Source of the DNA: Pelobacter seleniigenes DSM 18267
GTDB lineage: Bacteria > Desulfobacterota > Desulfuromonadia > Desulfuromonadales > Geopsychrobacteraceae
Assembly (NCBI RefSeq): GCF_000711225.1
Contig: NZ_JOMG01000004.1
Coordinates: 868,001-932,000, forward strand
Length of the DNA stretch: 64,000 nt
Reading direction: 5' to 3'
The notes beneath the pieces are model-generated. The model was not told the DNA's origin, did not search any database, and saw only the letters and a program-made list of their open reading frames with translations. Made by a program: the position numbers and the translations under genes. Of the stretch, positions 7,851 to 43,762 are shown in pieces (the first letter of the stretch is position 1; each line of letters starts with the position of its first letter).

Positions 7851-7853
7851 AGT

Positions 7854-8081: not shown

Positions 8082-8098
8082 GTTATTTCTTGAATACT

Positions 8099-27500: not shown

Positions 27501-30500
27501 GCAGCAGCCGCGCCAGTAGCAATCGGTGCGGCGGGAGTCTCTCCCGCGGCGCCGTCACGGCCGACCGTGGCAAGCGACCGGCTGCAGGATGCGCTACGGA
27601 TGACCACGCAGAGTATGCAGGCCCTGCAAAGCCTGCAGGAACAGACCGCCAAGCTGCATCAACAGTTTTTAGAAGGGCAGCAGGCCGCGACTCAGTCCTT
27701 CATGCAGCTGATTGAACAGCAACAGCAATTGCTGCATGGGCAGCCTTTGGTGCAGAACACAGCCACCCCGGCTGCTGTAGCCGCACCAGTTGCCGCACCC
27801 GCAACTCAACCGGTGGCGGCCGCAGTTCCAACCACGCCGACTAGTCCTCAGCCCGCCAGCGCTGCCGCAGCGCCTCTGCCGGTAACTCCGGTTGCCCCAG
27901 CTGCCCCGGCTGTCGTCAGTAACATTGCTCCGTTATTGCTCGAAATTATCGCCGAGAAAACCGGTTATCCGGTAGAAATGCTCGAACTTGAGATGGCGCT
28001 GGACTCGGATCTGGGAATTGACTCCATCAAACGGGTGGAAATCCTCTCCGCGCTGCAGGACCGCTTACCGCAAGCTCCGACCATCGGCCCGGAAGACCTT
28101 GGCCGCCTGCAGACCCTGGGGGAAATCGTTGCTCATCTTGATGCGGAGATGCCCGGTGATAAGGCTGCCACGGCGACCAGCGGGGTTTCTTCCGCAACCG
28201 TGGATGCGTCCCAGATTACTGCAACCTTGTTGGCGGTGGTCGCAGAAAAGACCGGCTACCCACAGGAGATGCTTGAACTGGAGATGGCCCTGGATAGCGA
28301 TCTGGGGATCGATTCCATCAAACGAGTGGAAATTCTTTCCGCCTTGCAGGAAAGCCTGCCTGAGCTGCCGCCGATTAAACCTGAAGAACTGGGGCAATTG
28401 CAGACCCTGGGACAGATTGTCGCTCATCTTGGCAGCGCGATTAGCGTTCCCGCCAGCGTGGCAACAGTTGCTGCTGCGGCGCTGCCGCAGGTGAGCCGCA
28501 AGCAGGTGAGTGAGACCCTGCTAGCCGTGGTCGCAGAAAAAACCGGCTATCCGGTCGACATGCTCGAACCGGAGATGGCCCTGGATACCGATCTGGGGAT
28601 CGACTCCATCAAACGGGTGGAAATCCTCTCCGCCCTGCAGGAACAGCTGCCGGATCTGCCGGCCGTCAAGCCGGAGGATCTCAGCGTGCTGCAGACTCTC
28701 GCCCAGATCATCGATCATCTCTGTCGCAGCCAACAGCCGAGTGCCATCGGCGTGGAACAACCGCAGCCTACAAGCGTCGATCGTGGCACAGTTGCCAGCA
28801 CCCTGCTTGAGGTGATTGCGGAAAAAACCGGTTACCCGGTGGAGATGCTTGAACTGGAGATGGCCCTGGATACCGATCTGGGAATCGACTCCATCAAGCG
28901 GGTGGAAATCCTCTCCGCTTTGCAGGAGCGGATACCGGGTGCGCCGGCCATCAAGCCGGAACATTTGGGTACTTTGCAGACCGTTGGTCAGATCGTCGAT
29001 TTCCTGGCCAGCCTGGCCGGTTCGGAAGAAACCAGGGAACCTTCCTCCAGTCAAGCGGTTGCGGCTGCCAAAGGGATCTCCCGACAGGTTCTCCAGGCCC
29101 TTCCATTACCTAAAAAGCGCCCCCAGAAGGAGTTCAAATTTACCTCCGGCGCGCAGGTCTGGATTACCGATGACGGTTCTGCCCTAAGTGATGAGCTTTG
29201 CAAACGGTTTACCGCTCGCCAGTTGATCCCGCGGAAAATTTCTCTGTCCGAATTGACCGACCTGGAAATTCCCGAGACCCTCTCCGGGCTGGTTGTGATG
29301 GCGCCTCTGCATGGCACCAGCGACCGCTTTTTAATCGATTCATTTGCCCTGGTGCAGAAATGTGAACCCGCCCTGGATACCGCCAGCGGGCGCGGTGGTG
29401 CTTTTATTGCCACCGTTTCCCGTCTGAACGGCTGCTTTGGGCTCAAATCACGCAGTAGCATTAGCGATCCCTTGTCCGGCGGCTTGGCCGGGCTGTGTAA
29501 AACCGCAGCCCTGGAATGGCCCTCCATTCATTGCAAAGCCCTGGATATCGCCATGGGAATGGAGATCGAAGCGACTGCCGAAACCCTGGTCAACGAGATC
29601 TTCCTGGCCGGCCCCCTTGAGGTCGGCGTGACTTCGGTCGGGATTCAGGGGTTGGAACTGGTCGAGCAACCGCTGTCCAGTCAAGCTTTGGACCTGCCGG
29701 TCGGAGCCGGGGATCTGGTGGTGATCAGCGGTGGTGCTCGGGGCGTCACGGCCGAAGCGGCAGTTGCGCTCGCCCGCGCCAGTCAGGCAACGCTGCTGCT
29801 ACTGGGCCGCAATCGTCTCAGTGAGAGCGAGCCGGCTTGGCTCAACGGGCTGCATGATGAGGCAGCCATTAAAAAGGGAATTCTCGCTCATGCTACCGGG
29901 CCGATGAAACCGAAAGAGGTTGCCCAGGAGTTCCAGCGGATCAGTGCTGAGCGGGAAATCCGCGCAACCCTGGAGCGGATTCTTAACGCCGGCGGCAAAG
30001 CCCTGTATCGGTCCGTGGACCTGCGTGATGCCGACCAGTGTCGGGCGGTTATTGCCGAAGCTGTTGCTGAGTATGGTCCGGTGCGCGGGATTATTCATGG
30101 TGCCGGAGTGCTGGCCGACAAACTGATCAAGGAAAAGACCCTGGCTCAATTTGATCAGGTCTACGCGACCAAGGTGGACGGTTTGCGCAACCTGCTCGCT
30201 TCAGTGACTGAAGCGGATTTGCAATTCCTTGCCCTGTATTCGTCCTCGACCGGGCGTTTCGGGCGCATCGGCCAGGTCGATTATGCCGTTGCCAATGAGG
30301 TGCTGAATAAAATTGCCGCTGCAGAGGCGGAAAAACTGCCTCACTGTCGGGTTCTGGCTCTGAACTGGGGCCCCTGGGACGGGGGGATGGTGACCCCGGA
30401 ACTGAAGAAAGTCTTTGCCCGGGAAGGGGTTGCGGTCATCGATCTGCAGGCCGGAACCGACTATTTGCTGCAGGAGTTGTCCAATCCGGATCGGGAAGCT

Positions 30501-31436
30501 GTCGAACTGGTGATCAGCGGCGCTGAAGAACAGGGCAGCGCTCTTTCGACCGCCGAGCCGCAAGCGAATATCTATGTGTCCAAGGCCTTCGATCTTGAGC
30601 TGTCCGTTGAACAGTATCCGTTTTTGAAATCTCATGTCATGGATGGCAAAGCGGTTCTGCCGGTGGCGATCATGGTCGAATGGATGGCCCATGGTGCGAT
30701 CCACAACAATCCTGGCCTGAAATTTCAGGGGTTCAATGATCTGCGGGTCTTGAAAGGGGTCATCCTGGCGGCGGACAGTAGCTACAGTCTGCAGGTCATG
30801 ACCGGTAAAGCGATCAAGAGTGACGGAATCCATGTCGTGCCGGTGGAAATTTCCGGCACCAACGGCAAAGGGCAGGTCGTACCTCACGCACGGGGCCGAA
30901 TTCTTCTGGCCTCAGCCTTGCCGGCTGTCAAAGCCGCTTTGCCGGCTCCTGAGCTGCCGGCCTATAACCGGGACGGGGAAATTTACACCGCCGACCGTCT
31001 GTTCCATGGTGCTGACTTCCATGGCATCAGCCGGGTGCTCGGTTGCTCCAGCCAGGGGATCAGCGTGGTTGCTCAGGGGGCACCGTCGCCCGGGCAATGG
31101 ATCGACCAGCCGCTGCGCAGCAGCTGGTTTGCCGATCCGTTGGTCCTCGACAGCAGTTTCCAGTCATTGATTCTGTGGAGTTTTGACCAATATCAGGCCG
31201 GCTCGCTGCCGGTGTTTGCCGAACGTTATCGGCAGTACCGCGAGCGCTTCCCGACCACCGGGACCGAAATCAGGGTCAAGGTCATTGAGCGGAGCACCAG
31301 CCGCGCTGTTGCTCAGATCGACTTTGTCGATGCCACCGACGGTTCGCTGGTGGCGCGGATCGAGAACTACGAATGTGTGATCGATGCCTCGCTGAATGCA
31401 ACTTTCCAGCGTAATAAACTGACTGGAGTCGCTTGA
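24585..31436 (+). CDS. pfaA: PUFA synthase PfaA (KS-AT-4xACP-KR-DH)
   Basis: 2283 residues. Domain order: KS 1-460 (Cys216 in DAACGSS, His in EGHGTG and IGHTKAA), malonyl-type AT ~570-880 (Ser682 in GHSYGE; AFHS favours malonyl), Ala/Pro/Gln linker ~980-1110, four ACPs with phosphopantetheine serines 1147, 1244, 1341 and 1436 (all LGIDSIKR), KR ~1710-1960 (SGGARGVTAEA; catalytic YAVAN), and a PKS-type DH at the C-terminus (HVMDGKAVLP). The start is TTG 24585, overlapping the pfaD stop as TTGA, with AAGGAG eight bases upstream; the next Met is inside the KS. It iteratively elongates and reduces the chain with PfaD and PfaC. Confidence 0.96.
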   Translation: MNNNNEVKEQSPASVPLAIVGIGCMFPQADNAGAFWTNIRNGADGISEVPETHWRPEDYFDQDPKAADKVYSKLGGFLSPVEFNPMDYGILPNSIEAIDTSQLLGLLTVEQALANAGYAGDKEFDRDRVSVILGVTGALELVIPLGARLGHPRWRQALEDAGVDQELAEDVVRRISDSYVPWQENSFPGLLGNVVAGRISKHFNFGGTNCVVDAACGSSLSALNLAALELAAGRSDMVVTGGIDTFNDIFMYSCFSKTPALSPSGHARPYSADSDGTTIGEGLGVVVLKRLSDAERDGDRIYAVVKGIGASSDGRGGAIYEPTASGQTKALRRAYEQAGIDPRSIELIEGHGTGTRVGDAIEVAALQEVFGPAEQPWCALGSVKSQIGHTKAAAGSAGLIKAALALYHKVLPPTIKVDQPHESLLQESSAFYLNTECRPWVGNPNHPRRAGISALGFGGSNFHCLLEEYQPEKAVVDWLGDVQPVPFSASTIEQLKQAVNDFPVAADWRAIRAAAAAQRQSFDSAAEYRLVAVLDRRQADPVGPLKTCLTQLAKHAEQSVWETPDGAYFASGPAGGKVALLFPGQGAQYPGMLADLAVQFPEFFVVLEQADRSFSAANGQSSGALAGKLYPRPQFDQAGRDASFAALQATDLAQPALGAVSLGAMRVLNGFGLQGDAFAGHSYGELAALCCAGALAEPDLYRLSKLRGELMAAGGGDRGTMLAVSAPLAEIADFISTAGLDLVLANRNTPTQGVLSGATSEIEKAARLLEQQGIAHKRLSVAAAFHSALVAEAAQPFAAELAQVDFQPARGQVYSNTTGQAYPQETQAMAELLSRQLASPVDFVAEVASLYRDGARIFVEVGPGARLVGMVKAILAEQPYAAVALDSSNGKRSTIHDLARLLARLASLGVSLDLSRWDQGYGATVGTKRKKAGLTLTLSGANHFKKPAKRPPLARLQPQPTEPVAAPASQSSAAAAPVAIGAAGVSPAAPSRPTVASDRLQDALRMTTQSMQALQSLQEQTAKLHQQFLEGQQAATQSFMQLIEQQQQLLHGQPLVQNTATPAAVAAPVAAPATQPVAAAVPTTPTSPQPASAAAAPLPVTPVAPAAPAVVSNIAPLLLEIIAEKTGYPVEMLELEMALDSDLGIDSIKRVEILSALQDRLPQAPTIGPEDLGRLQTLGEIVAHLDAEMPGDKAATATSGVSSATVDASQITATLLAVVAEKTGYPQEMLELEMALDSDLGIDSIKRVEILSALQESLPELPPIKPEELGQLQTLGQIVAHLGSAISVPASVATVAAAALPQVSRKQVSETLLAVVAEKTGYPVDMLEPEMALDTDLGIDSIKRVEILSALQEQLPDLPAVKPEDLSVLQTLAQIIDHLCRSQQPSAIGVEQPQPTSVDRGTVASTLLEVIAEKTGYPVEMLELEMALDTDLGIDSIKRVEILSALQERIPGAPAIKPEHLGTLQTVGQIVDFLASLAGSEETREPSSSQAVAAAKGISRQVLQALPLPKKRPQKEFKFTSGAQVWITDDGSALSDELCKRFTARQLIPRKISLSELTDLEIPETLSGLVVMAPLHGTSDRFLIDSFALVQKCEPALDTASGRGGAFIATVSRLNGCFGLKSRSSISDPLSGGLAGLCKTAALEWPSIHCKALDIAMGMEIEATAETLVNEIFLAGPLEVGVTSVGIQGLELVEQPLSSQALDLPVGAGDLVVISGGARGVTAEAAVALARASQATLLLLGRNRLSESEPAWLNGLHDEAAIKKGILAHATGPMKPKEVAQEFQRISAEREIRATLERILNAGGKALYRSVDLRDADQCRAVIAEAVAEYGPVRGIIHGAGVLADKLIKEKTLAQFDQVYATKVDGLRNLLASVTEADLQFLALYSSSTGRFGRIGQVDYAVANEVLNKIAAAEAEKLPHCRVLALNWGPWDGGMVTPELKKVFAREGVAVIDLQAGTDYLLQELSNPDREAVELVISGAEEQGSALSTAEPQANIYVSKAFDLELSVEQYPFLKSHVMDGKAVLPVAIMVEWMAHGAIHNNPGLKFQGFNDLRVLKGVILAADSSYSLQVMTGKAIKSDGIHVVPVEISGTNGKGQVVPHARGRILLASALPAVKAALPAPELPAYNRDGEIYTADRLFHGADFHGISRVLGCSSQGISVVAQGAPSPGQWIDQPLRSSWFADPLVLDSSFQSLILWSFDQYQAGSLPVFAERYRQYRERFPTTGTEIRVKVIERSTSRAVAQIDFVDATDGSLVARIENYECVIDASLNATFQRNKLTGVA
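27925..29010 (+). repeat. Four tandem ACP-encoding repeats in pfaA
   Basis: Carrier-domain serine codons at 28023, 28314, 28605 and 28890, giving spacings of 291, 291 and 285 bp. The LGIDSIKRVEIL core and much of the DNA around it are nearly identical in all copies, whereas the linkers differ. ACP number in Pfa synthases is known to scale with yield and not with chain length; Shewanella types usually have five or six. Confidence 0.9.
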
Positions 31437-31438: not shown

Positions 31439-34400
31439 ATGCCCCTTGCTCAATCTGTTGCGATTGTCGGGGTCGGTGGTGAGTTCCCAGCATCTCCGAC
31501 CCTTGATCGTTTTTGGGATAATATCGTTCATAACGTCAACACGGCCAGCGAACCCCCGGCGGGACGCTGGCTGCTGTCGGCTGATGAAGCCTATGACGCC
31601 AGAGTCGGCGTCCCGGATCGGGTCTATTCGCGCAAGGCCTGCTTTCTTGATCCGGCTACCGATTCGGCTGAGATCCCCGGGCTGGGGATTGACGCCGGCT
31701 TTCTCGCCAGGCTCGACCCCATGTTCCGGCTGCTGCTGCGGGTTGGTCAGCAGACTCTGGCCGATGTGCGCGGGAAAAAACCGCGGCCGGCCCAGTCCGG
31801 CATCATCATCGGTAACCTGGCTTTGCCCAGTGAAAAATCTTCCGCGTTGGCGCGCGCTTTTCTCGGTCAGACCTTTGTCGAACAACTCTCTGCCGAGAGA
31901 CAGCTCTCCTTACCGGAACACCAGTTGGAACCCCTCAATCACTATGTCGCTGGCTTGCCGGCATCGCTGCTGGCCAGAGCCATCGGCTTTCAGCGGACCT
32001 GCTTTACCGTTGATGCGGCCTGCGCTTCATCATTGTATGCCATCAAGCTCGCCGTCGATGAACTGCTGTCCGGGCGGGCCGATGCCATGCTCGCCGGGGG
32101 ACTATCGCGGCCCGACTCCCTCTATACGCAGATGGGGTTCTCTCAGCTCAGGGCGCTCTCTCCAAGCGGGACCTGCTCGCCGTTTGATCGTAACGGCAAC
32201 GGTCTGGTGGTCGGTGAAGGCTGCGGTCTGGTGTTGCTGAAACGGACCCAGGATGCCGTGCGTGACGGTGATCGAATCTACGCGGTGATTCGCGGGATCG
32301 GGCTCTCCAACGATCTGGGAGGGAATCTGCTGGCTCCGGCTGCGGAAGGCCAGCTGCGGGCCATGCGCGACGCCTACAAACAGGCTGGTTGGACCCCTGA
32401 TGTGGTCGATCTGATCGAATGTCACGCGACTGGAACCCCGGTCGGTGATGCGGTGGAATTTTCCAGTCTCTCGCAGCTCTGGCAGGACAGTTCCTGGCGA
32501 CCGGGGCAATGTGTCATCGGTTCGGCGAAAGCGAATATCGGCCATCTGTTGACTGCCGCCGGATCCGCCGCGCTGCTGAAGACCCTTGTGGCCATGAAGT
32601 CTGAGATTTTACCGCCAACGGTCAACTTCGCTGAGCCTGCGGCAGGGATCGATCTGGACAGCAGTCCATTTCGCATTCTCAAGCGTTCTGAGCATTGGGA
32701 ACGGCGGGCCGGACAACCGCGTCGCGCCGCGGTCAGTGCATTCGGTTTTGGCGGCATCAACGCCCATCTGCTGATTGAAGAGTGGCGACCCGCAGCAGGG
32801 AAAAGAAACCCGGTCCGGATTCATCCGTCTTCCAAGAAAAAACAGCAGCCGGTGGCCATCGTTGGGATGGCGACCCATTTCGGCGATCTGGACAGCCTGG
32901 ACAAATTTGCCCGGCAGCTGTTTCAGGATGCCACGCCCAGGTCACCCGAAGCGGTCACCAATTGGTGGGGTGCGGAAACCAGCCGCTGGTTACGCCAAAC
33001 GTTGCCTGATTCTGTAGCAGCGCAGGGTTACCCCCTGACTGAGGTTTCCGCCGTTGCCGGCGAATTCAGAATCCCACCACTGGAACTGGCGGAAATGCTG
33101 CCACGGCAACTGGCGATGCTGAAAGTAGCTGCCGCAGCGTTGGCCGACGCTGATCTGACTGCTGCTGACCTGCTTTTTGCCGGGGTCTTTATCGGCTGCG
33201 GCCTTGATCTGAATGCAACCAACTTCAGCTTTCGCTGGGCACTGGAAAAATATGCCCCGCGCTGGGCTCAGGAACTTGGGTTGGAGCTGGATGAGCAGCA
33301 AATGGGCGAGTGGATCGCCCAACTGCGGACGGCCGCCGGCCCGGCCCTGAGCGCCAATAGAACCATGGGTGCTCTGGGGAGTACCGTGGCGAGCCGGGTC
33401 GCCAAGGAATTCCGCATTGGCGGACCCAGCTTCACCCTCTCCAGCGAGGAAACTTCAGGGCTCAGTGCGTTGCAGGCCGGCATTCATGCCTTGCAGGAAG
33501 GGTCCATTACCCGGGCGATTGTCGGTGCTGTCGATTTTGCAGCAGATCTGCGTGCCGTGTTAAGCAGGCAACTGGGTGGCACCTTGGCAGAGGATACCCT
33601 GATCGGCGAAGGTGCCGCGGCTCTCGTCCTGAAACGCCTGGCTGATGCCAAGCAGGATGGCGACCGGATTTATGCCGTGATCAGTGGCATCGACAGTGTT
33701 ATTGCCGGTTCGCCCGAACAGCAGGGGCGGGATGATGACTCCTGGCTCGGTTCGTTACAGGGGGCCTGCGCTCATGCCGGGATCAAACCCTGCCAGCTTG
33801 ACGCCGTCATCTCCGGCAGCAGCGGTCCGGCAGCGTTTTTAAACCGTGATGTGGCGGGGTTGAACAAACTGTTGGCCGACCGGGACGACAACCGACCCTG
33901 GAGTCTTTCCGCCGTGGTCGATTATATCGGCGACAGTGGCGGGGCAGGGGGCTTGGCAGCGGTTGTCCAGGCGGCGCTCTGTTTGCATCGTCGGCTGCTT
34001 TCAGGAACCGCCACGGGTGCTGCCGTCCAAGCCGCCGCAAGCGGCAACTGCTGGACCCCGCAGGCGCCTCAGTATTGGTTGCATAATCGTGTCCGCGGGC
34101 CGCGCCGCATGTTGGTCAGCGATCTCGGCTTTGACCATTCAGCACTGCATGCGGTCCTGGAAGAATATCAGGGCCCCGAGCAGGAGCGAGCCGAGCTCAG
34201 CGATGGCCTGACCCTGCCTGCTGCTGAAGCGCTGTTCGTTATTGAAGGTGATTCACCGGCCCAGCTCTTGGACGGTTTGGCCCAATTGCAGGATCTGGTT
34301 CGGGCACTGACCGGAAAGCCGCTTGCCGTTATGGCGCGCCGCTGGTTTGAAGCCCATCCTCCACAACCGCAGTTGCCTCTCTGTATCAGCCTGGTGAGTG

Positions 34401-37400
34401 CCGCTGAGCAGGAATTGAACGAGCTGATCAGCTACGCCGAACAGGCCCTCAGAAGCAATCCTGAACAGAGTTTAGGCCGACAATCCGGCCATGGCGATGG
34501 CAATGGGACCCTGTTGCCGCCGGCGTTGCGGGAGCGGATTTTTTACTCTGCCGATCCCCTGACCAGGCAGGGCAAAGTCGCCTTTGTTTTTCCTGGCTCC
34601 GGCAACCATTTTGCCGGGATGGGGCGCGAACTATCACTGTTCCGACCGGACATCTATGCGACCCAGGAACAGAGCAGCCAGCTGCTGGCAGATCAATATC
34701 AGCCCTGGCGGTTCTGGAACCAGGAGTTGCAGTCGCAACTCCATGAGGATCATAACGCCCTGGTGATTTCTCATGTTGCCTTGTGTACGGCCCTTCATGA
34801 TCTGCTGCGCAATTTCAATATCCACCCGCAAATGATCAGTGGCTACAGCCTGGGCGAGTCTTCCGGACTGTTCTCTTCCGGTGCCTGGCGCGAGCGGGAT
34901 GGAATGCTCAAACGCCTGAAAACCTCGGCACTGTTTACCGATGAGTTGGCCGGAGCCTGTCAGGCCGCTCGCCGGGTCTGGAATCTGCCTGCCCACGAGC
35001 CGGTCGATTGGTCCCTTGGTATTGTCAATGTACCGGCTGACAAAGTGCGTTCGCTGCTTCAGGGGCGCGACAGAGTTTATCTGCTGATCGTCAATACCTA
35101 TCGCGAATGTGTGATCGGCGGCCAGCGTACCGAGGTGGAAAGGCTGGTCCGCGATCTCGGCTGCCATTTCATCCCTCTGCAAGGGGTGACCACGGTCCAC
35201 TGTGAAGTCACCAAGGCTGTGGCCGAGGCCTATCGACGGCTGCACCTGTTTGAGGTCACACCGCCGCCGGGGATCGATTACTACAGCTGTGCACTGGGGA
35301 AAAAATACCCGCTGACCTCCGCCAACGCTGCTGATGTCATTCTTGCCCAGGCTTTGGATACTATCGACTATCCGCGGGTGATCGAGCAGCTTTATGCTGA
35401 TGGGGCGCGGCTGTTTCTGGAAGTCGGTCCCGGCAATTCCTGCAGCCGGATGATTAACAGCATCCTTGCGGAACGGCCGCATCTGTCCCGTTCTTTGTGT
35501 GCTCCGGGGGTTGCTGAAGCCACCCAGCTGTTACGCTTGTTGGCCCACTGTCTGGCTGAGCGGGTGCCGGTCGATTTTGCCCAGCTTTACCCGGTGACCA
35601 AAACACAGCCCGAAAATATCGCTGCCCGTGACAACCGCAAGATCGCCATTCGCTCTGGGGGAGAAGCTTTTTCACCACAGCTTCCCGATGTTAAATATGT
35701 CAAAAAAACAGTAACTAATGAATCTGTTATTGATAAAATGGATGAAGAAATTATCAGGCCGATAAAGAGTCCGCAGGCTGCCCCGGAAGCTGCCCCGGAA
35801 GCTGGTATGGGCGGCGGGGTTGCCGCAACCATGACCCGGCTGTTGCAATCCGGCGCCGCTGCCCACGAAGCTTACCTCAACTTTGCTAAATCCATGGAAC
35901 AGGCGCTGAGCAGCAATATTCGGCAGCAATTGGGCCTGCTCCAGCAGTTTGAGGCCAGCGGGCAATCTTTGCCCGAAGACCTTTTCCCGGCCGCACCGCT
36001 GAGCGCAGACGACAAACAGCCGAGCGCTGCCGCGCCGAGTCCGCCGCAACCGGAGTCGGTCCCGGTTGCCTTTGACCGAGCCATGTGTCTGGAGTTCGCC
36101 ATCGGTTCCGTCGGCAAAATGCTCGGTCCCGACTTTGCCGCTGTCGATCAGTTTCCAACCCGGGTTCGTTTGCCGGACGAACCGCTGATGCTGGTTGACC
36201 GCATTCTGAGCGTGGAGGGTGAACCCAAATCCATGACTCAGGGACGGGTGGTGACCGAACATGATGTGACCCCGGAGCGCTGGTATCTCGACGGGTTGCG
36301 GATTCCAACCTGCGTTGCCGTTGAAGCCGGTCAGGCCGATCTGTTCCTGTCAGGCTATTTGGGGATCGATTTCATCACCAAAGGCGAGGCGGTTTATCGA
36401 CTCCTTGATGCGGAAGTGACTTTTCATCGCGGGCTGCCTCAGCCCGGCGATACCATCCGCTATGACATAAAAATCCATAATTTCTTCCGCCAGGACCAGA
36501 CCTACCTGTTCCGTTTCAGTTTTGAAGGAACGGTCAACGGTCAGCCGCTGCTGTCCATGGCCAAAGGCTGCGCCGGCTTTTTCAGCGCGGCGGAACTGGC
36601 CGCCGGACGCGGCATCGTTCACACCAAGTTGGATCTGCTGCCGCAACCGGGCAAGCTGCCCGCAGACTGGCAGGAGCCGGTTTCCCTGACTGTGGAATCT
36701 TATGATGAAAACCAGATCGATGCCCTCTACCGGGGCGATCTCGTCGCCTGTTTCGGACCGCAGTTTGCCAATCTACCGCTGCAGCGACCATATACGCTGC
36801 CGGGCGGGAAGCTGAAGCTGGTCGACCGGGTCACCCGGCTCGATCCCCGCGGCGGGCGTTACGGTATCGGCCAGATCAGCGCCGAGATGGATATCCATCC
36901 CGAAGACTGGTTCCTGACCTGTCATTTTGTCGATGACCGGGTCATGCCCGGCACGCTGATGTATGAATGTTGCCTGCATACCCTGCGGATCTATCTGCTG
37001 CGCATGGGTTGGATTGGTGAAGAAGGGGAGACCTGGTGCGAACCGGTGCCCGGGGTGACCAGTGGACTGAAGTGCCGCGGTCAGGTCATTGAATCCACTA
37101 AAACAGTCACTTATCGGGTCAATATCAAGGAACTCGGCTATGGCCCGGAACCCTATGCAATTGTTGATGCATTGATGTATGCCGATGGGCATCCGATCGT
37201 CGAAATACCCGATATGTCGGTCCGCCTGTCCGGTCTGAACCGCGCCAAGATCGAGGCGCTCTGGTCCGGACACCAGCCGACCCGGGCTGCGGACAAGCGC
37301 CAGGTTCTGTTTGATACCGAGCGTATCACCGCCTTTGCCATCGGCAACCCCTCCTTTGCTTTCGGCGAGCCCTACCGGGTCTTTGATCAGGAGCGCAAGA

Positions 37401-38398
37401 TCGCCCGGCTGCCCGGGCCGCCGTTCCAGTTTCTGGATCGTATTGTCGCGATCGACGGCGAACCCTGGAAACTGGTGGAGGGAGTGGCGATCGTTGCTGA
37501 GTATGACGTGCCGCCGGATGCCTGGTATTTTGCCGCCGGCCGCCAGCCGGATATGCCTTTCAGTGTGCTGTTGGAAATCGGCCTGCAGCCCTGTGGTTGG
37601 CTGGCCGCTTACCTTGGCTCGGCGCTGACCAGCTCGGTGGACCTGTCGTTCCGAAATCTCGACGGCAACGCGGTCATGCATCGGCCGGTCACCGCGGCTT
37701 CCGGAACTCTGGAGATTGCTGTTAAGATCACTCGCATCGCCAGCAGTGGCGGGATGATCATCCAGGGGTATGATTTTCAGGTCAGTGATCGTCAGGGGCC
37801 GGTCTATAGCGGAGACACTCTGTTCGGATTCTTCTCTAAGGAGTCCCTGGCGCAGCAGGTCGGGGTGCGCGGTGCCGTGCTCTATCAGCCGGCCGAAGAT
37901 GAGTTGGCAATGGCCCGCTCCTTTACCTACCCTGAAGATGCTCCTTTCCCGGCCAGTCAGCTGCGGATGATCGACCGGATCGAGCTGCTGATCGAGCAAG
38001 GCGGCCCCCATGGCCTGGGCTATGTGCGCGGTCAGAAAAAGGTGGACCCTGAAGAGTGGTTCTTTAAAGCGCATTTCTATCAGGACCCGGTCTGCCCCGG
38101 CTCCCTCGGCCTGGAATCGTTTCTGCAGTTGTTAAAAGCTTTTGCGGCCGCGCATTGGCAAGTGGGCCCGGAAAGCCGTTTTGAGACCGTCGCCTGTGGC
38201 ATGAAGCACAGTTGGAACTATCGCGGACAGGTTATTCCGACCAACCGCCAGGTCACCGTGGAAGCGATGATCAAGGCGATTGACGAGGAGCAGCGGATCA
38301 TGACCGCCGACGGCAGTTTGTCCGTCGATGGCAAGGTGATCTACCAGATGCACGATTTTTCCCTCAGGTTGTACCCGGCTGACGGGGAATTGAGTTGA
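31439..38398 (+). CDS. pfaC: PUFA synthase PfaC-type fusion (KS-CLF-AT-DH-DH)
   Basis: 2319 residues. KS ~5-450 (Cys195 in DAACASS, His in ECHATG and IGHLLTA), chain-length-factor KS ~465-900 with Glu671 at the nucleophile position and Asp in place of the second His (YIGDSGG), AT ~1045-1350 (FVFPGSG; Ser1137 in GYSLGESS, as in PfaB), then four hot-dog folds forming two FabA-type dehydratases (~1540-2310; HFVDDRVMPG and HFYQDPVCPG catalytic blocks). This joins Shewanella PfaB and PfaC functions in one chain, as in myxobacterial Pfa3, but the acylglycerol-phosphate acyltransferase found at the end of Pfa3 is absent. ATG 31439 is two bases after pfaA; TTG 31433 (TTGA overlap) is an alternative. 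Confidence 0.93.
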   Translation: MPLAQSVAIVGVGGEFPASPTLDRFWDNIVHNVNTASEPPAGRWLLSADEAYDARVGVPDRVYSRKACFLDPATDSAEIPGLGIDAGFLARLDPMFRLLLRVGQQTLADVRGKKPRPAQSGIIIGNLALPSEKSSALARAFLGQTFVEQLSAERQLSLPEHQLEPLNHYVAGLPASLLARAIGFQRTCFTVDAACASSLYAIKLAVDELLSGRADAMLAGGLSRPDSLYTQMGFSQLRALSPSGTCSPFDRNGNGLVVGEGCGLVLLKRTQDAVRDGDRIYAVIRGIGLSNDLGGNLLAPAAEGQLRAMRDAYKQAGWTPDVVDLIECHATGTPVGDAVEFSSLSQLWQDSSWRPGQCVIGSAKANIGHLLTAAGSAALLKTLVAMKSEILPPTVNFAEPAAGIDLDSSPFRILKRSEHWERRAGQPRRAAVSAFGFGGINAHLLIEEWRPAAGKRNPVRIHPSSKKKQQPVAIVGMATHFGDLDSLDKFARQLFQDATPRSPEAVTNWWGAETSRWLRQTLPDSVAAQGYPLTEVSAVAGEFRIPPLELAEMLPRQLAMLKVAAAALADADLTAADLLFAGVFIGCGLDLNATNFSFRWALEKYAPRWAQELGLELDEQQMGEWIAQLRTAAGPALSANRTMGALGSTVASRVAKEFRIGGPSFTLSSEETSGLSALQAGIHALQEGSITRAIVGAVDFAADLRAVLSRQLGGTLAEDTLIGEGAAALVLKRLADAKQDGDRIYAVISGIDSVIAGSPEQQGRDDDSWLGSLQGACAHAGIKPCQLDAVISGSSGPAAFLNRDVAGLNKLLADRDDNRPWSLSAVVDYIGDSGGAGGLAAVVQAALCLHRRLLSGTATGAAVQAAASGNCWTPQAPQYWLHNRVRGPRRMLVSDLGFDHSALHAVLEEYQGPEQERAELSDGLTLPAAEALFVIEGDSPAQLLDGLAQLQDLVRALTGKPLAVMARRWFEAHPPQPQLPLCISLVSAAEQELNELISYAEQALRSNPEQSLGRQSGHGDGNGTLLPPALRERIFYSADPLTRQGKVAFVFPGSGNHFAGMGRELSLFRPDIYATQEQSSQLLADQYQPWRFWNQELQSQLHEDHNALVISHVALCTALHDLLRNFNIHPQMISGYSLGESSGLFSSGAWRERDGMLKRLKTSALFTDELAGACQAARRVWNLPAHEPVDWSLGIVNVPADKVRSLLQGRDRVYLLIVNTYRECVIGGQRTEVERLVRDLGCHFIPLQGVTTVHCEVTKAVAEAYRRLHLFEVTPPPGIDYYSCALGKKYPLTSANAADVILAQALDTIDYPRVIEQLYADGARLFLEVGPGNSCSRMINSILAERPHLSRSLCAPGVAEATQLLRLLAHCLAERVPVDFAQLYPVTKTQPENIAARDNRKIAIRSGGEAFSPQLPDVKYVKKTVTNESVIDKMDEEIIRPIKSPQAAPEAAPEAGMGGGVAATMTRLLQSGAAAHEAYLNFAKSMEQALSSNIRQQLGLLQQFEASGQSLPEDLFPAAPLSADDKQPSAAAPSPPQPESVPVAFDRAMCLEFAIGSVGKMLGPDFAAVDQFPTRVRLPDEPLMLVDRILSVEGEPKSMTQGRVVTEHDVTPERWYLDGLRIPTCVAVEAGQADLFLSGYLGIDFITKGEAVYRLLDAEVTFHRGLPQPGDTIRYDIKIHNFFRQDQTYLFRFSFEGTVNGQPLLSMAKGCAGFFSAAELAAGRGIVHTKLDLLPQPGKLPADWQEPVSLTVESYDENQIDALYRGDLVACFGPQFANLPLQRPYTLPGGKLKLVDRVTRLDPRGGRYGIGQISAEMDIHPEDWFLTCHFVDDRVMPGTLMYECCLHTLRIYLLRMGWIGEEGETWCEPVPGVTSGLKCRGQVIESTKTVTYRVNIKELGYGPEPYAIVDALMYADGHPIVEIPDMSVRLSGLNRAKIEALWSGHQPTRAADKRQVLFDTERITAFAIGNPSFAFGEPYRVFDQERKIARLPGPPFQFLDRIVAIDGEPWKLVEGVAIVAEYDVPPDAWYFAAGRQPDMPFSVLLEIGLQPCGWLAAYLGSALTSSVDLSFRNLDGNAVMHRPVTAASGTLEIAVKITRIASSGGMIIQGYDFQVSDRQGPVYSGDTLFGFFSKESLAQQVGVRGAVLYQPAEDELAMARSFTYPEDAPFPASQLRMIDRIELLIEQGGPHGLGYVRGQKKVDPEEWFFKAHFYQDPVCPGSLGLESFLQLLKAFAAAHWQVGPESRFETVACGMKHSWNYRGQVIPTNRQVTVEAMIKAIDEEQRIMTADGSLSVDGKVIYQMHDFSLRLYPADGELS

Positions 38399-38478
38399 GA
38401 GACTTCACCTCCGCCTGATTTCATGTTACAAGAGCTTTCCGTAATCAGATCAACCTTTTGCCCTGAAGCATTGTATAG

Positions 38479-39522
38479 ATGAAATATTCAAGAGTATTTA
38501 TCGAATCGGTCGGTTATGAGCTGGCCCCGATCGTCATGTCGTCGGCCGAACTGGAACAGCGACTTGCCCCTGTGTACGAGAAATTGCATATCGGTTCGGG
38601 GCAGCTGGAAGCGCTGACCGGAATCCGCGAACGGCGCTGGTGGAAACCGAACACCCCGGTCTCCCACGGTGCGATCGCCGCAGCCAAAAAATGCCTCCAG
38701 GAACGGAACGTCGCGCCCCAGGATATCGGTGCAGTCGTCTATGCCGGGGTCTGCCGGGAGTATTTCGAACCGGCCACGGCCTGCCAGGTTGCTGCTGCGT
38801 TGGGTGTGCAGGGGGATGCTGCGGTTTATGATATTTCCAATGCCTGCCTCGGCGTGCTCAACGGCGTTCTTGATATTGCCAACCGCATCGAACTGGGTCA
38901 GATTCGCTGCGGCCTGGTCGTAGCCTGTGAAAGTTCACGGGAAATCAACGAGATCATGATCCAGCAGATGCTTGACAATCCGACCATGGAATTGTTTACC
39001 ACGTCGCTGGCCACCTTGACCGGTGGTTCCGGCGCCGCCGCTGTACTGCTGACCGACGGTTCTTTTGCTCCGTCGCGGCGTCCCCGGCTGCTGGGCGGCG
39101 TGAATATCGCCGAACCACAGTTCAACGAGCTGTGCCGCTGGGGGATCCGCAAGGAAGCGGACGGTTCCCATTCCCCGTTTATGCGCACTGACGCGGTTTC
39201 CGTCATGAAGCATGGCGTGGAATTGGGCAAGCGCACCTGGGAAGTTTTCTCCCGGGAGCTGGGGCTCAGCCCGGAGCGTATCGACCGGGTCATTTGCCAT
39301 CAGGTCGGCGAGGCCCATCAGAAGCTGATCCTGCAGACCCTGGGGATTGCCCCTGACAAGGATTTTCCCACCTTTGAATTTCTCGGTAATATGGGGACCG
39401 TGTCTTTGCCGATTACTGCCGCGATCGCTAAAGAGCGGGATATGATCCGCCCCGGCAACCTGGTCGGTTTCCTGGGGATCGGTAGCGGTCTGAACTGCCT
39501 GATGATGGCCATCCAATGGTAG
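38479..39522 (+). CDS. oleA: OleA: thiolase-fold head-to-head acyl condensing enzyme
   Basis: 347 residues of the FabH/OleA type. Catalytic residues: Cys123 in SNACLGV, His in ICHQVGEAHQK, Asn in FLGNMGTVS. OleA joins two acyl-CoA (or ACP) chains to a beta-ketoacid. It is assigned OleA and not FabH because oleB, oleC and oleD follow directly and the length exceeds the ~320 of FabH. It starts 80 bases after pfaC, the widest gap in the run; no terminator is visible there. Placing it directly after a PUFA synthase suggests that its substrates are polyunsaturated chains. Stop overlaps the oleB start (ATGGTAG). Confidence 0.9.
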   Translation: MKYSRVFIESVGYELAPIVMSSAELEQRLAPVYEKLHIGSGQLEALTGIRERRWWKPNTPVSHGAIAAAKKCLQERNVAPQDIGAVVYAGVCREYFEPATACQVAAALGVQGDAAVYDISNACLGVLNGVLDIANRIELGQIRCGLVVACESSREINEIMIQQMLDNPTMELFTTSLATLTGGSGAAAVLLTDGSFAPSRRPRLLGGVNIAEPQFNELCRWGIRKEADGSHSPFMRTDAVSVMKHGVELGKRTWEVFSRELGLSPERIDRVICHQVGEAHQKLILQTLGIAPDKDFPTFEFLGNMGTVSLPITAAIAKERDMIRPGNLVGFLGIGSGLNCLMMAIQW

Positions 39523-40436
39523 TGGATTCGCAACTGCAGCAGGCCGGATATCCGTTTACCAGTCATTTTCTGGATCTGAACGGACTGCAATACCATTATC
39601 TTGACGAAGGGCAGGGGGAGGCGGTGGTCATGCTCCACGGCAACCCGTCCTGGTCCTTCTATTACCGGAACCTGGTTCGCGAGCTGCGGTCGACCCACCG
39701 GGTGATTGTGCCCGATCATATTGGTTGCGGCCTGTCGGATAAACCCGCCGACTCCCAGTATTCCTATCGGCTCGAACAGCGGGTTGCGGATCTTGATGCG
39801 CTGCTTAACAGCCTTGACCTGCCCGCCAAACTGACCCTGGTTGTCCACGACTGGGGCGGGATGATCGGCATGGCCTGGGCGGCCGCAAACCCGGAGCGGA
39901 TCGCCCGACTGGTGATCTTCAATACCGCCGCGTTCCCGTTGCCGGAAGGCAAGAAGTTCCCCCTGGCGTTGAAGATCTGCCGGGACACTCAATTTGGGGC
40001 TTTTCTGGTACAGGGACTGAATATCTTCGCCCGCGGGGCGGCCTGGGTCGGTTGTAAGCGCCGGCGCATGTCGGCTGAATTGCGCAAAGCTTATTGCAGC
40101 CCTTATGACAGCTGGCACAACCGCGTGGCGACCCTGCGCTTTGTGCAGGATATCCCCTTAGCTGCGGACGATCCCGGTTTCGACCTGATCCACCGGGTCG
40201 GGCAGGCCTTGCCGCAGTTCGCCCAGGTGCCGACCTGTATCTGCTGGGGTGAGAAAGATTTTGTGTTTGACCGGTATTTTCTTGAAAAATGGCAGGAATA
40301 CCTGCCCCAGGCCGAGGTTCATTCCTTTGCCGATTGCGGTCATTACATTCTCGAAGATGCCGCGGACGAGATTCTGCCCCTGGTCAAACAATTCTTATTG
40401 GCCAATCCCGTCGCAACTGCTGCCAAGTCATCATGA
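39516..40436 (+). CDS. oleB: OleB: alpha/beta-hydrolase (beta-lactone decarboxylase)
   Basis: 306 residues, haloalkane-dehalogenase-like alpha/beta-hydrolase fold. Visible: LHGNPSWSFYYRNL (oxyanion loop), VVHDWGGMIGMAW (nucleophile elbow with Asp, as in OleB and dehalogenases), and GHYILEDA (catalytic His). In the Ole pathway OleB decarboxylates the cis-beta-lactone made by OleC to a cis-olefin. ATG 39516 overlaps oleA by seven bases, and its own stop overlaps the oleC start (ATGA), so translation is coupled throughout. Confidence 0.9.
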   Translation: MVVDSQLQQAGYPFTSHFLDLNGLQYHYLDEGQGEAVVMLHGNPSWSFYYRNLVRELRSTHRVIVPDHIGCGLSDKPADSQYSYRLEQRVADLDALLNSLDLPAKLTLVVHDWGGMIGMAWAAANPERIARLVIFNTAAFPLPEGKKFPLALKICRDTQFGAFLVQGLNIFARGAAWVGCKRRRMSAELRKAYCSPYDSWHNRVATLRFVQDIPLAADDPGFDLIHRVGQALPQFAQVPTCICWGEKDFVFDRYFLEKWQEYLPQAEVHSFADCGHYILEDAADEILPLVKQFLLANPVATAAKSS

Positions 40437-42094
40437 ATGCGGACAGTGACTATAATATAGCGTCTTATCTACCGCGCATGGCCGCGCTCCAACCGGAGAT
40501 TCCGGCGGTTCATTTTCCCCTTGGCAAGCAGGCTGGCAGGGAAGCCGATTATCTGACCCTGAGCTACCGGGAGCTGAATGAGCGAAGTGACCGGATTGCA
40601 GTGGGACTTGAGCGTATCGGCATCCGGCGCGGGTTGAGGACCGTGCTCATGGTCAAGCCGAGCCCGGATTTTTTCGCCCTGACCTTTGCCCTGTTCAAAG
40701 TCGGCGCCGTACCGGTGCTCATCGATCCGGGGATGGGCCTGAAAAACCTGAAAACCTGCCTGGAAGAGGCCGCCCCGGAAGCTTTTATCGGCATTCCGCA
40801 GGCCCAGGCAGCGCGGATTCTGCTTGGGTGGGGGAGAAAAAGCATCCGTATTCTGCTGACCGTCGGTTCCCGCTGGTTTTGGGGCGGCAGCACTTTGCAG
40901 CGCCTGCTTGAGCAAAGCTCGACCGATTCGCGCTATACGACCGTTGCCAGCGCGCGCGATGAAACCGCCGCCATTCTCTTTACCAGCGGCAGCACCGGCG
41001 TCCCCAAAGGGGCCATTTACAGTCACGGCAACTTCCTGGCTCAGGTTGAGGCGTTGCGTCAGGTTTACCACATCGAACCGGGCGAAATCGATCTGCCCAC
41101 CTTTCCGCTGTTTGCCCTGTTTGCTCCTGCTCTGGGGATGACTTCGGTGCTCCCGGCCATGGATTTTACCAAACCCGGCAGCGTTAACCCGGACAATATC
41201 ATCAGTGCGGTCCAGCGTTTTCAGGCCACCACCATGTTCGGTTCGCCGGCGCTGATCCGCCGGGTCGGTCGCTATGGCTGTCAACATGGGGTTAAGCTGC
41301 CCAGCCTGAAGCGGGTGATTTCCGCGGGAGCGCCGGTTCCGGCCGGTGTGCTCGCCGATTTTTCTCAGCTGCTCGGTGAAAACGTCGAAATATTCACGCC
41401 CTACGGAGCGACCGAAGCCCTACCGGTCTGTTCTATCGGCAGCCGGACCATCCTTGCTGAAACCGCTCAACTGACCGATCTCGGCAAAGGGGTTTGTGTC
41501 GGTTATCCGGTTCCCGGCATTGAGCTTAAAATCATTCGCATCAGCGATGAAGAACTGCCGGAATGGTCCGCCGACCTGCCGCTCAAAACCGGGGAAATCG
41601 GTGAGATTGCGGTCAAGGGCGCACAGGTGACCCGGGAATATTTCCATCGCGAAGAATCGACCCGGTTGGCGAAAATCGCTGATCCGGCCGGTGGTTTTTA
41701 TCATCGCATGGGGGATCTCGGGTACTGTGATGAACAGGGCCGGATCTGGTTTTGCGGACGCAAGGCTCATCGGGTTGAAACCGCCGGGGAAACCTTGTTT
41801 TCCATCCCCTGTGAAGCGATTTTCAATACCCATCCGGAGGTGTTACGCACCGCTTTGGTTGGTGTTGTTAATGGGCAGGATACGCTGCCGGTCATTTGTG
41901 TGGAGCTGGAACCGGGCCATTCCCAGCCTGAAGAAGCCATCCTTAAAGACCTTCAAAAGATCGCAAAAACAAATAGTTTGACGCAAAACATCAAGCAGTT
42001 TCTCATTCATCGCGAGTTCCCTGTCGATATCCGTCACAACGCCAAGATTTTCCGGGAAAAACTGGCGGTCTGGGCACAGGAGCAGCTCTCATGA
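40433..42094 (+). CDS. oleC: OleC: AMP-dependent beta-lactone synthetase
   Basis: 553 residues from ATG 40433, which overlaps the oleB stop by four bases; a longer frame upstream is only a shadow in oleB. Adenylate-forming enzyme: ATP loop ILFTSGSTGVPKGAIYSH, adenine region YGATEALP, and the GDLGYCDEQGRIWFCGRK hinge. OleC uses ATP to convert the 2-alkyl-3-hydroxyacid from OleD to a beta-lactone. Length matches OleC. Fatty-acyl-CoA/AMP ligases are the alternative reading, but the gene order oleABCD is decisive. Confidence 0.9.
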   Translation: MNADSDYNIASYLPRMAALQPEIPAVHFPLGKQAGREADYLTLSYRELNERSDRIAVGLERIGIRRGLRTVLMVKPSPDFFALTFALFKVGAVPVLIDPGMGLKNLKTCLEEAAPEAFIGIPQAQAARILLGWGRKSIRILLTVGSRWFWGGSTLQRLLEQSSTDSRYTTVASARDETAAILFTSGSTGVPKGAIYSHGNFLAQVEALRQVYHIEPGEIDLPTFPLFALFAPALGMTSVLPAMDFTKPGSVNPDNIISAVQRFQATTMFGSPALIRRVGRYGCQHGVKLPSLKRVISAGAPVPAGVLADFSQLLGENVEIFTPYGATEALPVCSIGSRTILAETAQLTDLGKGVCVGYPVPGIELKIIRISDEELPEWSADLPLKTGEIGEIAVKGAQVTREYFHREESTRLAKIADPAGGFYHRMGDLGYCDEQGRIWFCGRKAHRVETAGETLFSIPCEAIFNTHPEVLRTALVGVVNGQDTLPVICVELEPGHSQPEEAILKDLQKIAKTNSLTQNIKQFLIHREFPVDIRHNAKIFREKLAVWAQEQLS

Positions 42095-43089
42095 ACGTCC
42101 TGGTAACCGGCGGCGGCGGTTTTCTCGGCAAGGCGATCGTCCGGCTGCTGGTTGAGCAGGGGGCCAGCGTCACATCCCTGGCACGCAGTTATTCTCCTGA
42201 TCTCGCTGCCCTCGGGGTGACCCAGCAGCAGGGGGATATCGCTGATCCCACAGCGGTCTCCGCGGCTGTGGCAGGGACTGAGCTGGTATTCCATGTTGCC
42301 GCCAAAGCCGGGGTCTGGGGCAGCTACGATGATTATTACCGGCCCAATGTGCTTGGAACGCAAAACGTGATTGATGCCTGTCGCCGCCACGGGGTCGGAC
42401 GTTTGGTCTATACCAGCTCTCCCAGTGTGGTGTTCAACGGTAAGGACATGGAAGGCTGTGATGAAACCGTGCCCTATCCGGATCATTACCTGTCCTGGTA
42501 TCCGCAGACCAAGGCCGTTGCCGAGCGGCTGGTGCTGGCAGCCGATGGTCCTGGCTTGACAACCGTCGCGTTGCGCCCTCATCTGATCTGGGGCCCGGAA
42601 GATAATCAACTGGTGCCGCGGATTCTGGAGCGTGGCCGTAAAGGGCAGCTGCGCCGGATCGGACGTCGTGATTGCCTGGTCGACACTGTCTATATCGATA
42701 ACGCCGCTCAGGCCCATCTCGCTGCGGCGCAGGTGCTTGCACCCGGCTCGGCGGTTTCGGGCAAGGTCTATTTTATTGCCAATGGTGAGCCTGTACCGCT
42801 CTGGCAACTGGTCAATCAGATTCTCGCTGCTGGCGGGGTGACCCCGGTGACCGGAACCATTCCATCCTCGTTCGCCTACGGGCTCGGCTGGCTGCTGGAA
42901 CAGGTTTACCAGCTGTTTAAATTACCGGGCGAACCACGGCTGACCCGTTTTGTGGCAGAGGAACTGTCCACCGCCCATTGGTTCGACCTGGCGGCGGCAC
43001 GGCGCGATTTCGGCTATCGGCCGCAGGTGAGCATCAATGAAGGACTTGCGCGCCTGGCCGCTTGGCTGGATGGCCATGAACAGCCCTGA
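42091..43089 (+). CDS. oleD: OleD: NAD(P)H-dependent 2-alkyl-3-ketoacid reductase
   Basis: 332 residues, short-chain dehydrogenase of the 3-beta-HSD/epimerase type. Nucleotide-binding TGGGGFLGKAIV at the N-terminus, YTSSPSVVF with the catalytic Ser, and YPQTK with the catalytic Tyr and Lys. OleD reduces the beta-ketoacid made by OleA to the 3-hydroxyacid used by OleC. The ATG overlaps the oleC stop by four bases. With oleA-C it completes a four-gene olefin pathway. Confidence 0.9.
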   Translation: MNVLVTGGGGFLGKAIVRLLVEQGASVTSLARSYSPDLAALGVTQQQGDIADPTAVSAAVAGTELVFHVAAKAGVWGSYDDYYRPNVLGTQNVIDACRRHGVGRLVYTSSPSVVFNGKDMEGCDETVPYPDHYLSWYPQTKAVAERLVLAADGPGLTTVALRPHLIWGPEDNQLVPRILERGRKGQLRRIGRRDCLVDTVYIDNAAQAHLAAAQVLAPGSAVSGKVYFIANGEPVPLWQLVNQILAAGGVTPVTGTIPSSFAYGLGWLLEQVYQLFKLPGEPRLTRFVAEELSTAHWFDLAAARRDFGYRPQVSINEGLARLAAWLDGHEQP

Positions 43090-43762
43090 ACGGTGCTGGC
43101 AGCAAGGGCCGGATAGACTGGCCATTGACGATGGGGTTCTTGATCTGTGGCGGTTTCCGCTGGCGGAAAGAGCTGTGGAGGATGTCCATCGGCAGCTGTT
43201 GAGTGCACAGGAACTTGACCGCGCAGGCAAATTGTTGGTCGAACAGAAGAGAACCGAATTCATCCTTTGCCGGGCCACGATCCGGCGTATCCTTTCCCGC
43301 TACCTTGCCTCAGCTCCCGAACAATTGGCTTTCACCACCCTTGAACATGGTAAGCCGGTGCTGGCAGCTGACGTGCATGATCGGCCACTGTCTTTCAACC
43401 TGAGTCATGCCGGTGGCTGGGGCCTCCTCGCCGTCACCTCGGGGGCTGCCGTCGGGGTTGATATCGAGCTGATCGATGCACAGTTAAACTTCTTCGGTAT
43501 TGCCAGCAGATTTTTTACCCGCCATGAGCAAAACGAGCTGGACTCATATCCCGCTGTCCGGCAAAGGCGTGGTTTTTATCGTCTCTGGACCCGTAAAGAA
43601 GCTTTGCTGAAGATGAGTGGAAGCGGTTTCTACGGGGTTGGCAAAGGGCCTGCTGAGCAGGCTGATTATCTGCAGCATTTGGTCGTGGGCCCTGGTTATG
43701 TTGCTACCGTGGCTGTTGCCGCTGCCATCAGAACCTGGCACTGTTATCAGTTTGCTCCCTGA
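43070..43762 (+). CDS. Sfp-type 4'-phosphopantetheinyl transferase (PfaE role)
   Basis: 230 residues from ATG 43070 (ATG 43076 also possible), overlapping the oleD end by about 20 bases. Sfp/PfaE-type enzymes attach phosphopantetheine from CoA to ACP serines. Signatures: LSHAGGWGLLAV, VGVDIELID (Mg-binding Asp/Glu) and FYRLWTRKEALLKMSGSGF (the W-x-x-K-E-A motif). As the last gene of the run it presumably activates the four ACPs of PfaA and makes the cluster self-sufficient. Confidence 0.9.
   Translation: MAMNSPERCWQQGPDRLAIDDGVLDLWRFPLAERAVEDVHRQLLSAQELDRAGKLLVEQKRTEFILCRATIRRILSRYLASAPEQLAFTTLEHGKPVLAADVHDRPLSFNLSHAGGWGLLAVTSGAAVGVDIELIDAQLNFFGIASRFFTRHEQNELDSYPAVRQRRGFYRLWTRKEALLKMSGSGFYGVGKGPAEQADYLQHLVVGPGYVATVAVAAAIRTWHCYQFAP

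Follow-up and report, generated by a model that had tools for sequence, protein, structure and literature searches.

Gene organisation of the locus

The window, i.e. the whole stretch of 64,000 nt from Pelobacter seleniigenes DSM 18267 that was analysed, contains a co-directional run on the + strand consisting of ispH, pfaD, pfaA, pfaBC, oleA, oleB, oleC, oleD and a PPTase gene. The features are as follows.

22087..22944, +, ispH/lytB, start of the co-directional run (PF02401, 270 bits)
22957..24588, +, pfaD, enoyl reductase (TIGR02814, 639.7 bits, over cut-off)
24585..31436, +, pfaA, KS-MAT-4xACP-KR-DH (TIGR02813, 1668 bits, over cut-off)
31439..38398, +, pfaBC fusion, KS-CLF-AT-DH-DH, 2319 aa, without AGPAT (profile searches)
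34562..35572, +, PfaB-type terminal acyltransferase domain by sequence, aa 1042-1378 (TIGR02816, PDB 9ry8, invariant residues)
36170..37207, +, first FabA-type double hotdog (PF07977)
37409..38350, +, second FabA-type double hotdog, at the protein end (PF07977)
38399..38478, +, gap between pfaBC and oleA, 80 nt (fold z 0.37)
38479..39522, +, oleA (PDB 3row, E 6.8e-56; PRK09258, 478 bits, over cut-off)
39516..40436, +, oleB, alpha/beta hydrolase of the haloalkane dehalogenase family (PF00561, 108 bits)
40433..42094, +, oleC, AMP-dependent beta-lactone synthetase family (PRK09274, 780 bits, over cut-off)
42091..43089, +, oleD, 2-alkyl-3-oxoalkanoate reductase family (NF042422, 448.5 bits, under the cut-off of 580)
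43037..43762, +, PPTase, pfaE role (PF01648, 56 bits)

The pfaBC ORF starts with TTG at 31433 or ATG at 31439 and ends at 38398 on the + strand. Double-hotdog coordinates are genome coordinates minus 868000, and the oleC start was inferred from an ATG overlapping the oleB stop codon. ispH precedes pfaD by 12 nt in the same orientation and is probably not a part of the pathway. PfaA carries four PF00550 (ACP) stretches and the MAT motif GHSYGE. OleB scores 172 bits against the haloalkane dehalogenase model NF002938 (under cut-off) and OleC 699.5 bits against NF045785, where the cut-off of 850 is not reached. The 80-nt gap between pfaBC and oleA revealed neither a promoter nor a regulatory hairpin; there is no terminator-like site on the + strand and no unusual fold. 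A pfaT (Orf6) hotdog thioesterase is missing from the operon, each gene of the run being otherwise assigned. Five PF13279 proteins over cut-off are encoded elsewhere in the genome, all outside the operon, and Orf6 is not named among the PDB matches listed for two of these five.

The operon type has been described before and the window holds an ordinary member of it. A Type I pfaBC cluster is reported for Desulfuromonas, Geobacter and Pelobacter (Shulse and Allen 2011, PMC3098273); the same text states that ole genes are often linked to Type I and proposes that Type I feeds olefin synthesis. The window shows the corresponding KS-CLF-AT-DH2 pfaBC fusion with pfaD and pfaA beside it and linked ole genes. 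Hosts of the Type I synthase are mostly Deltaproteobacteria, and one MAG of the window's order (G088) is labelled 'Deltaproteobacteria bacterium'. The order pfaD, pfaA, pfaBC, oleABCD, PPTase is the same as in the Type I secondary lipid synthase with ole genes of Geobacter bemidjiensis, described as the tandem pfaD,A,B,C-oleA,B,C,D-pfaE by Yoshida et al. 2016 (PMC4882568), and nothing tested sets the window's operon apart from it. G. bemidjiensis is a producer of C31:9, hentriacontanonaene (PMC4882568, PMC3098273). PMC4882568 calls the metabolites of these genes in G. bemidjiensis largely unknown, C31:9 excepted.

Domain architecture of PfaBC and search for a terminal AGPAT

On the 2319-aa PfaBC, Pfam detects two ketoacyl-synthase stretches, one acyl-transferase stretch and four FabA stretches; owing to these four, the terminal DH-DH represents two double-hotdog units. 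The best FabA stretch covers residues 2171-2304, leaving 15 residues after the last hotdog. The architecture KS-CLF-AT-DH-DH ending at the second FabA dehydratase, as given in the initial annotation, is therefore confirmed.

The same annotation stated that a terminal AGPAT is lacking and named a profile search as a way to uncover a cryptic one. We ran this search using Pfam profiles as well as a profile derived from homologous AGPAT tails; no AGPAT was found, whether in PfaBC or in the remainder of the window. The tail profile yields -2.0 bits on PfaBC, no more than 3.5 bits (E 0.99) across the six frames of the window (stop-to-stop segments of at least 60 aa) and does not exceed 0.1 bits on any of the 37 further fusions from the window's order. 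As a positive control, PF01553 (E <= 0.01) was recovered in 48 out of 55 PfaC tails of at least 200 residues, including that of Sorangium cellulosum So0157-2. A cryptic AGPAT in PfaBC or the window is thereby ruled out and the domain is truly absent from PfaBC, in line with the earlier statement. Shewanella PfaC is likewise not known to carry an AGPAT. The source genome encodes four PF01553 proteins over cut-off, all on another contig and none operon-linked.

For comparison we used a set of distant PfaC, which holds the best 80 loci listed, ranked by likeness to the divergent PfaC L047 and not to that of the window. Among its 73 proteins with a complete C-terminus, the second dehydratase is followed by fewer than 100 residues in 20 cases, by 100-299 in two, by 300-499 in 11 and by at least 500 in 40. 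L047 (L047:7124-14686) is itself a second PfaC in G088, a 'Deltaproteobacteria bacterium' MAG of the window's order (same coordinates as G120 and L070). It shows five FabA stretches, one of which occupies the C-terminal tail, the AGPAT site of other PfaC.

The internal acyltransferase domain

The AT stretch detected by Pfam (1049-1242) scores 30.5 bits, slightly below the cut-off of 32.7. NCBIfam TIGR02816 (pfaB_fam) matches aa 1042-1378 with 99.3 bits (E 2e-28; cut-off 144.3 not reached). The best PDB match is 9ry8, the PfaB (PfaBs) of Shewanella baltica, at E 5.4e-27, followed by a runner-up at 6.9e-13. Conspicuous residues are Tyr1136-Ser1137, Asn1219 and His1254. Tyr1136-Ser1137 is found where MATs show His-Ser, as in the GHSYGE motif of the window's PfaA, and I1110 and T1162 occupy the sites of the malonyl-recognising Gln and Arg in MATs. 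The residue roles in this comparison are from PMC12895367; I1110 and T1162 were assigned to their PfaBs counterparts by counting positions in the alignment as printed.

None of the 38 fusions aligned from the window's order deviates at Tyr, Ser, Asn1219 or His. I1110 is kept in 37 of them (one gap) and Arg never occurs at position 1162. A decay of the AT in ole-linked fusions of this order is hence ruled out. With Tyr before Ser, His, and no Gln/Arg malonyl pair, the domain displays the features of the PfaB type and, judged by its motifs, is not a malonyl loader. S. baltica PfaB shares Tyr-Ser, His and the Ile in place of the MAT Gln; its AT follows a KS' pseudo-domain of its own (PMC12895367), whereas that of the window is fused inside PfaC after CLF.

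Homologues of the PfaB type are reported to transfer or hydrolyse long acyl chains: PfaB is described as the terminal acyltransferase setting the product (PMC12895367) and the AT-like domain of Thraustochytrium as a thioesterase (PMC8003026). Since the AT is PfaB-like with an intact and invariant site, PfaBC appears by sequence to retain a release domain. The view that offloading is done by another enzyme overlooks this domain within PfaBC itself.

OleA and its link to PfaBC

Cys123, Glu97, His274 and Asn304 of the window's OleA align with the catalytic Cys, Glu, His and Asn of X. campestris OleA (3row), and the catalytic set is in place. Among 118 genomes of the window's order, 61 have PfaBC-fusion matches, 61 have OleA and 57 have both (Fisher p 1.3e-23, relatedness ignored). 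PfaBC occurs alone in G053, G080, G095 and G105, OleA alone in G026, G069, G101 and G119. In 10 of the 12 first relatives fetched, oleA lies downstream on the same strand within ~2.2 kb; in G013 and G017 both are present with oleA on another contig. As the feature is conserved in relatives, it is not due to chance. Outside the order, L151, L152 (whose PfaC is truncated at the start) and L154 (from a Verrucomicrobia MAG) each show a PfaC immediately followed by oleA.

That OleA could take chains directly from the synthase, as suggested in the initial annotation, is an idea already published for a neighbouring system, since Allemann et al. 2019 (PMC6463001) obtained a 31:8 ketone by Shewanella OleA from a Pfa synthase in delta-fadD E. 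coli. An acyl-CoA synthetase is therefore not needed, and their conclusion is that OleA takes chains from ACPs, in contrast to older work cited therein which regards acyl-CoA as the OleA substrate. In Shewanella, OleA is likewise fed by a Pfa synthase. There, however, the AT is a separate PfaB, the ole genes may be located elsewhere and a PfaT thioesterase is present, whereas the window's operon has no PfaT.

Distribution of AGPAT and oleA among PfaC proteins

Myxobacterial Pfa3 (Aetherobacter, Minicystis; PMC8436480) shares the order KS-CLF-AT-DH-DH and ends in an AGPAT, unlike the PfaBC of the window; both genera lie outside our sampled set. The AGPAT is presented as a special trait of myxobacterial pfa3 in PMC4882568. 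To place the window's protein we used a quick PfaC tree of 117 rows (KS region, LG+G4, unrooted, no bootstrap), in which many forks are below 80 or open. All 28 AGPAT proteins fall on one side (41 rows, 94% SH-aLRT), where no row has an adjacent oleA; adjacency here means the same strand and a distance of up to 5 kb. The AGPAT PfaC of other Myxococcota (L071, L075, L085, L093, L094, L110, L116, L132) belong here; Sorangium L105 (AGPAT present) is not among the rows. The other side (75 rows, 96% SH-aLRT) includes the window, with AGPAT in 0/75 and adjacent oleA in 50/75. A single long row (L229) falls outside both.

Adjacent oleA is accordingly found with none of the 28 AGPAT PfaC and with 51 of the 89 others (p 5e-9, relatedness ignored). 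AGPAT never occurs together with adjacent oleA because it is confined to the other tree side. Independent pairs, in which oleA differs in 0 or 1 of 6, lend no support to a direct association and are too few to test one. On this unrooted tree AGPAT appears as a characteristic of the opposite PfaC side rather than as something lost beside oleA here, and its absence is normal for the window's PfaC lineage.

The 53 full-length PfaC of the distant set (a looser filter, 53/80, than the stricter one of the 117-row set, which kept 40 rows of 79 loci) comprise 17 with AT only, 13 with AT and AGPAT, 21 with AGPAT only and two with neither. AT-only PfaC are thus common and Pfa3, on which the initial annotation relied, is a misleading yardstick. 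OleA is present in the genome (E <= 1e-40) at 20 of 34 AGPAT loci and at 9 of 16 AT-only loci, where AT-only L119 was left out, two AGPAT loci share one genome and some matches, at 34-40% identity, may represent OleA of a different type. Genomes with AGPAT thus have OleA no less often, and there is no opposition between the two. These genome-level counts and the tree rule out, as a general rule, that oleA compensates for AGPAT loss, and the earlier notion that oleA takes the place of the AGPAT finds no support. Three genomes (G150, G154, G187) contain an AGPAT-ended PfaC and, elsewhere, an AGPAT-free PfaC followed by oleA.

Two fen Myxococcales MAGs (L077, L081) show an AGPAT-ended PfaC with oleA-oleB within ~4.4 kb on the opposite strand.

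PfaC proteins without acyltransferase in a second order

The PfaC of L151 is intact (1578 residues), consists of KS-CLF and a single dehydratase unit, and overlaps oleA; no AT, second dehydratase or AGPAT was found in it (7400-13176). In the order of L151, 87 of 116 genomes match this PfaC at E <= 1e-100, partly via the KS region only. We fetched 69 loci from the matches listed for this one PfaC query, of which 67 gave a PfaC row (L225 and L228 gave none). Twelve rows (L189, L211, L218, L219, which is AT-less, L221, L222, L226, L230, L232-L235) were dropped owing to cut ends or less than 2.5 kb of downstream DNA without oleA. The remaining 55 rows comprise 24 with AT and oleA, 12 with AT without oleA, 15 AT-less with oleA and four AT-less without oleA. 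AGPAT occurs in 0/55, so 19 of the 55 are without AT and AGPAT; the first 14 loci were picked for short frames and the sampling is therefore selective, meaning that this share is not a prevalence.

The window's side of the tree, to which L151, L154 and the window's own order also contribute, contains 19 AT-less rows, and in 15 of these oleA is adjacent. PfaC without AT and with oleA (16 rows including L229) are so scattered that the starred branches force at least six changes. Adjacent oleA accompanies 15/19 AT-less and 35/56 AT-bearing rows (p 0.26). A tie between AT loss and adjacent oleA thus has the right direction but is not significant, as is the case in the pairs test. In the set without AT and AGPAT the KS-cysteine pattern failed in L146, L167, L173, L176, L223, L229 and L231.

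We further asked for a PfaB-type AT elsewhere in the genomes. Among the ORFs available, at least 158 bits are reached by PfaC-type ATs and at most 130 by all others, with three exceptions: a 716-residue ORF (201 bits) and two ORFs in PfaC position without dehydratase in frame (L225, L228). A PfaB-type AT was not found in 18 of the 19 genomes with AT-less PfaC, which are possibly incomplete. G256 is the sole genome to pass the AT score; the others reach at most 125 bits, and the 125-bit case (G242) carries the MAT motif GHSYGE. Absences in these genomes are therefore provisional. With this proviso, the data suggest synthases that possess neither of the known terminal acyltransferases, and in them OleA presents itself as the obvious unloader. 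As counterpoints, PfaA's own MAT remains in these cases, and the AT-less operon L174 has oleBCD without an adjacent oleA. In the papers listed and the text covered, mainly open-access and without figures, no PfaC without AT beside oleA is mentioned. Such proteins are the most promising starting point for the case that OleA unloads the synthase alone, and are more surprising evidence for unloading by OleA than the window's operon.

Of 18 genomes having a PfaC without adjacent oleA, 16 show an OleA match at another site, and in 13 of these the identity is at least 52%. The contigs of G299 and G234 stop within ~1 kb, and in G300 oleA lies beside another PfaC.

Proposed route of chain release

Product release from PUFA synthases is still debated, with AT, AGPAT, thioesterase, DH and OleA as candidates. 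Our comparison separates two architectural families of PfaC, one with many AGPAT-ended members and one tied to OleA with a variable AT. For the window we consider it probable that PfaA, PfaBC and PfaD build the chain, OleA unloads the ACPs and OleBCD make the hydrocarbon, with the AT as a second exit. PfaA, the PfaBC fusion and PfaD would assemble a polyunsaturated chain on the four ACPs of PfaA; judging from Shewanella, this is probably a C16 tetraene. OleA would take this chain directly off the ACPs and condense two of them head to head, and OleBCD may then complete the synthesis of a polyunsaturated hydrocarbon, for example C31:9. The PfaB-type AT within PfaBC would be a working long-chain acyltransferase or hydrolase able to unload or edit chains by a second route. 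AGPAT would play no part in the window's lineage. The sequences show gene order, domains, intact AT and OleA sites, the absence of AGPAT on the window's tree side and the co-occurrence with OleA; the product and its chain length, direct transfer from ACP to OleA in the source organism and the AT role are inferred.

Support for unloading by OleA comes in addition from the PfaC of another order that are free of AT and AGPAT with oleA adjacent. The in vivo case for OleA acting on ACPs refers to one system (PMC6463001), and the TIGR02816, OleC-specific and OleD-specific matches of the window are all under curated cut-offs. Moreover, OleA is perhaps not the main release step here, given that all PfaBC aligned from the order retain a conserved AT. 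Of the initial interpretation, the absent AGPAT and a well-placed, plausible OleA persist, the latter backed by the Shewanella delta-fadD ketone and the AT-less PfaC-oleA operons; OleA is not the sole release candidate, the AT having been overlooked, and a swap of AGPAT for oleA is unsupported.

Several alternatives, not all of which exclude each other or the proposed route, have to be weighed. The AT might hydrolyse or transfer the chain, an unlinked ligase make acyl-CoA and OleA use the latter. The intact PfaB-type site fits this, as do the published roles of PfaB as terminal acyltransferase (PMC12895367) and of the Thraustochytrium domain as thioesterase (PMC8003026), but ketone formation in E. 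coli without FadD (PMC6463001) and the ole-linked AT-less PfaC, 18 of 19 of whose genomes revealed no PfaB-type AT, render it unlikely. About equally doubtful is a delivery of the chains to membrane phospholipid by an unlinked PlsC, with OleA receiving a side stream. Shewanella plsC1 provides a precedent (PMC4882568) and four PF01553 proteins are at hand on another contig. However, none of them is operon-linked, OleA is present in 57 of 61 PfaBC genomes, and C31:9 is the one product singled out for G. bemidjiensis, where the metabolites of these genes are otherwise called largely unknown (PMC4882568).

Even less credit is due to the loss of an ancestral C-terminal AGPAT as oleA took over. The complete lack of AGPAT with adjacent oleA in 117 rows (0/28 versus 51/89) would agree with it, and so would the three genomes holding an AGPAT-ended PfaC plus a separate AGPAT-free PfaC-oleA. 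Yet AGPAT is found only on the other tree side, AT-only PfaC without adjacent oleA are common, the six independent pairs give no support (too few to test), and L077 and L081 have an AGPAT-ended PfaC near oleA/oleB, albeit on the opposite strand; we regard this course as very improbable. Hydrolysis of the thioester by the four-hotdog DH region, releasing free acid, has as its basis that expression of a P. profundum PfaC DH fragment raised fatty acid (reviewed in PMC4882568), and is likewise hardly to be expected.

Beyond the proposed route for the window, we tentatively put forward a wider reading, which is somewhat more likely to be wrong than right. OleA, instead of the terminal AT, could be the release enzyme of pfa-ole synthases in general. 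The AT would be dispensable because OleA releases the chain, and would have been lost repeatedly. PfaC of the type KS-CLF-DH(-DH) would pass all chains to OleA and give hydrocarbon only, and the AT-bearing protein of the window would be an intermediate with a second exit. The AT-less members represent natural knock-outs of the usual release domain, which makes off-loading by OleA directly testable.

Deviating gene structures in the second order

L151, L175, L176 and L180 encode PfaC of 1433-1578 aa with KS-CLF and one DH unit, without AT, second DH and AGPAT, and with oleA overlapping or directly next. In L174 (G267:C172:4000-23000) the genes oleB, oleC and oleD come after an AT-less PfaC without an adjacent oleA; the sole OleA match of this genome (E <= 1e-40) is 39% identical and located on another contig. 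For L178 and L179, oleC and oleD are matched in long frames that overlap or are shared, which may reflect a fusion or an overlap of frames. L225 (G250:C1:1655400-1673000) shows a 1639-aa ORF in PfaC position with a PfaB-type AT (456.6 bits) and no dehydratase in frame, possibly a split PfaC. G256:C325 (L236, L254) belongs to a genome with an AT-less PfaC-ole operon and two PfaB-type ATs (GYSMGE), one of them in a frame of 846 aa, perhaps a stand-alone PfaB.
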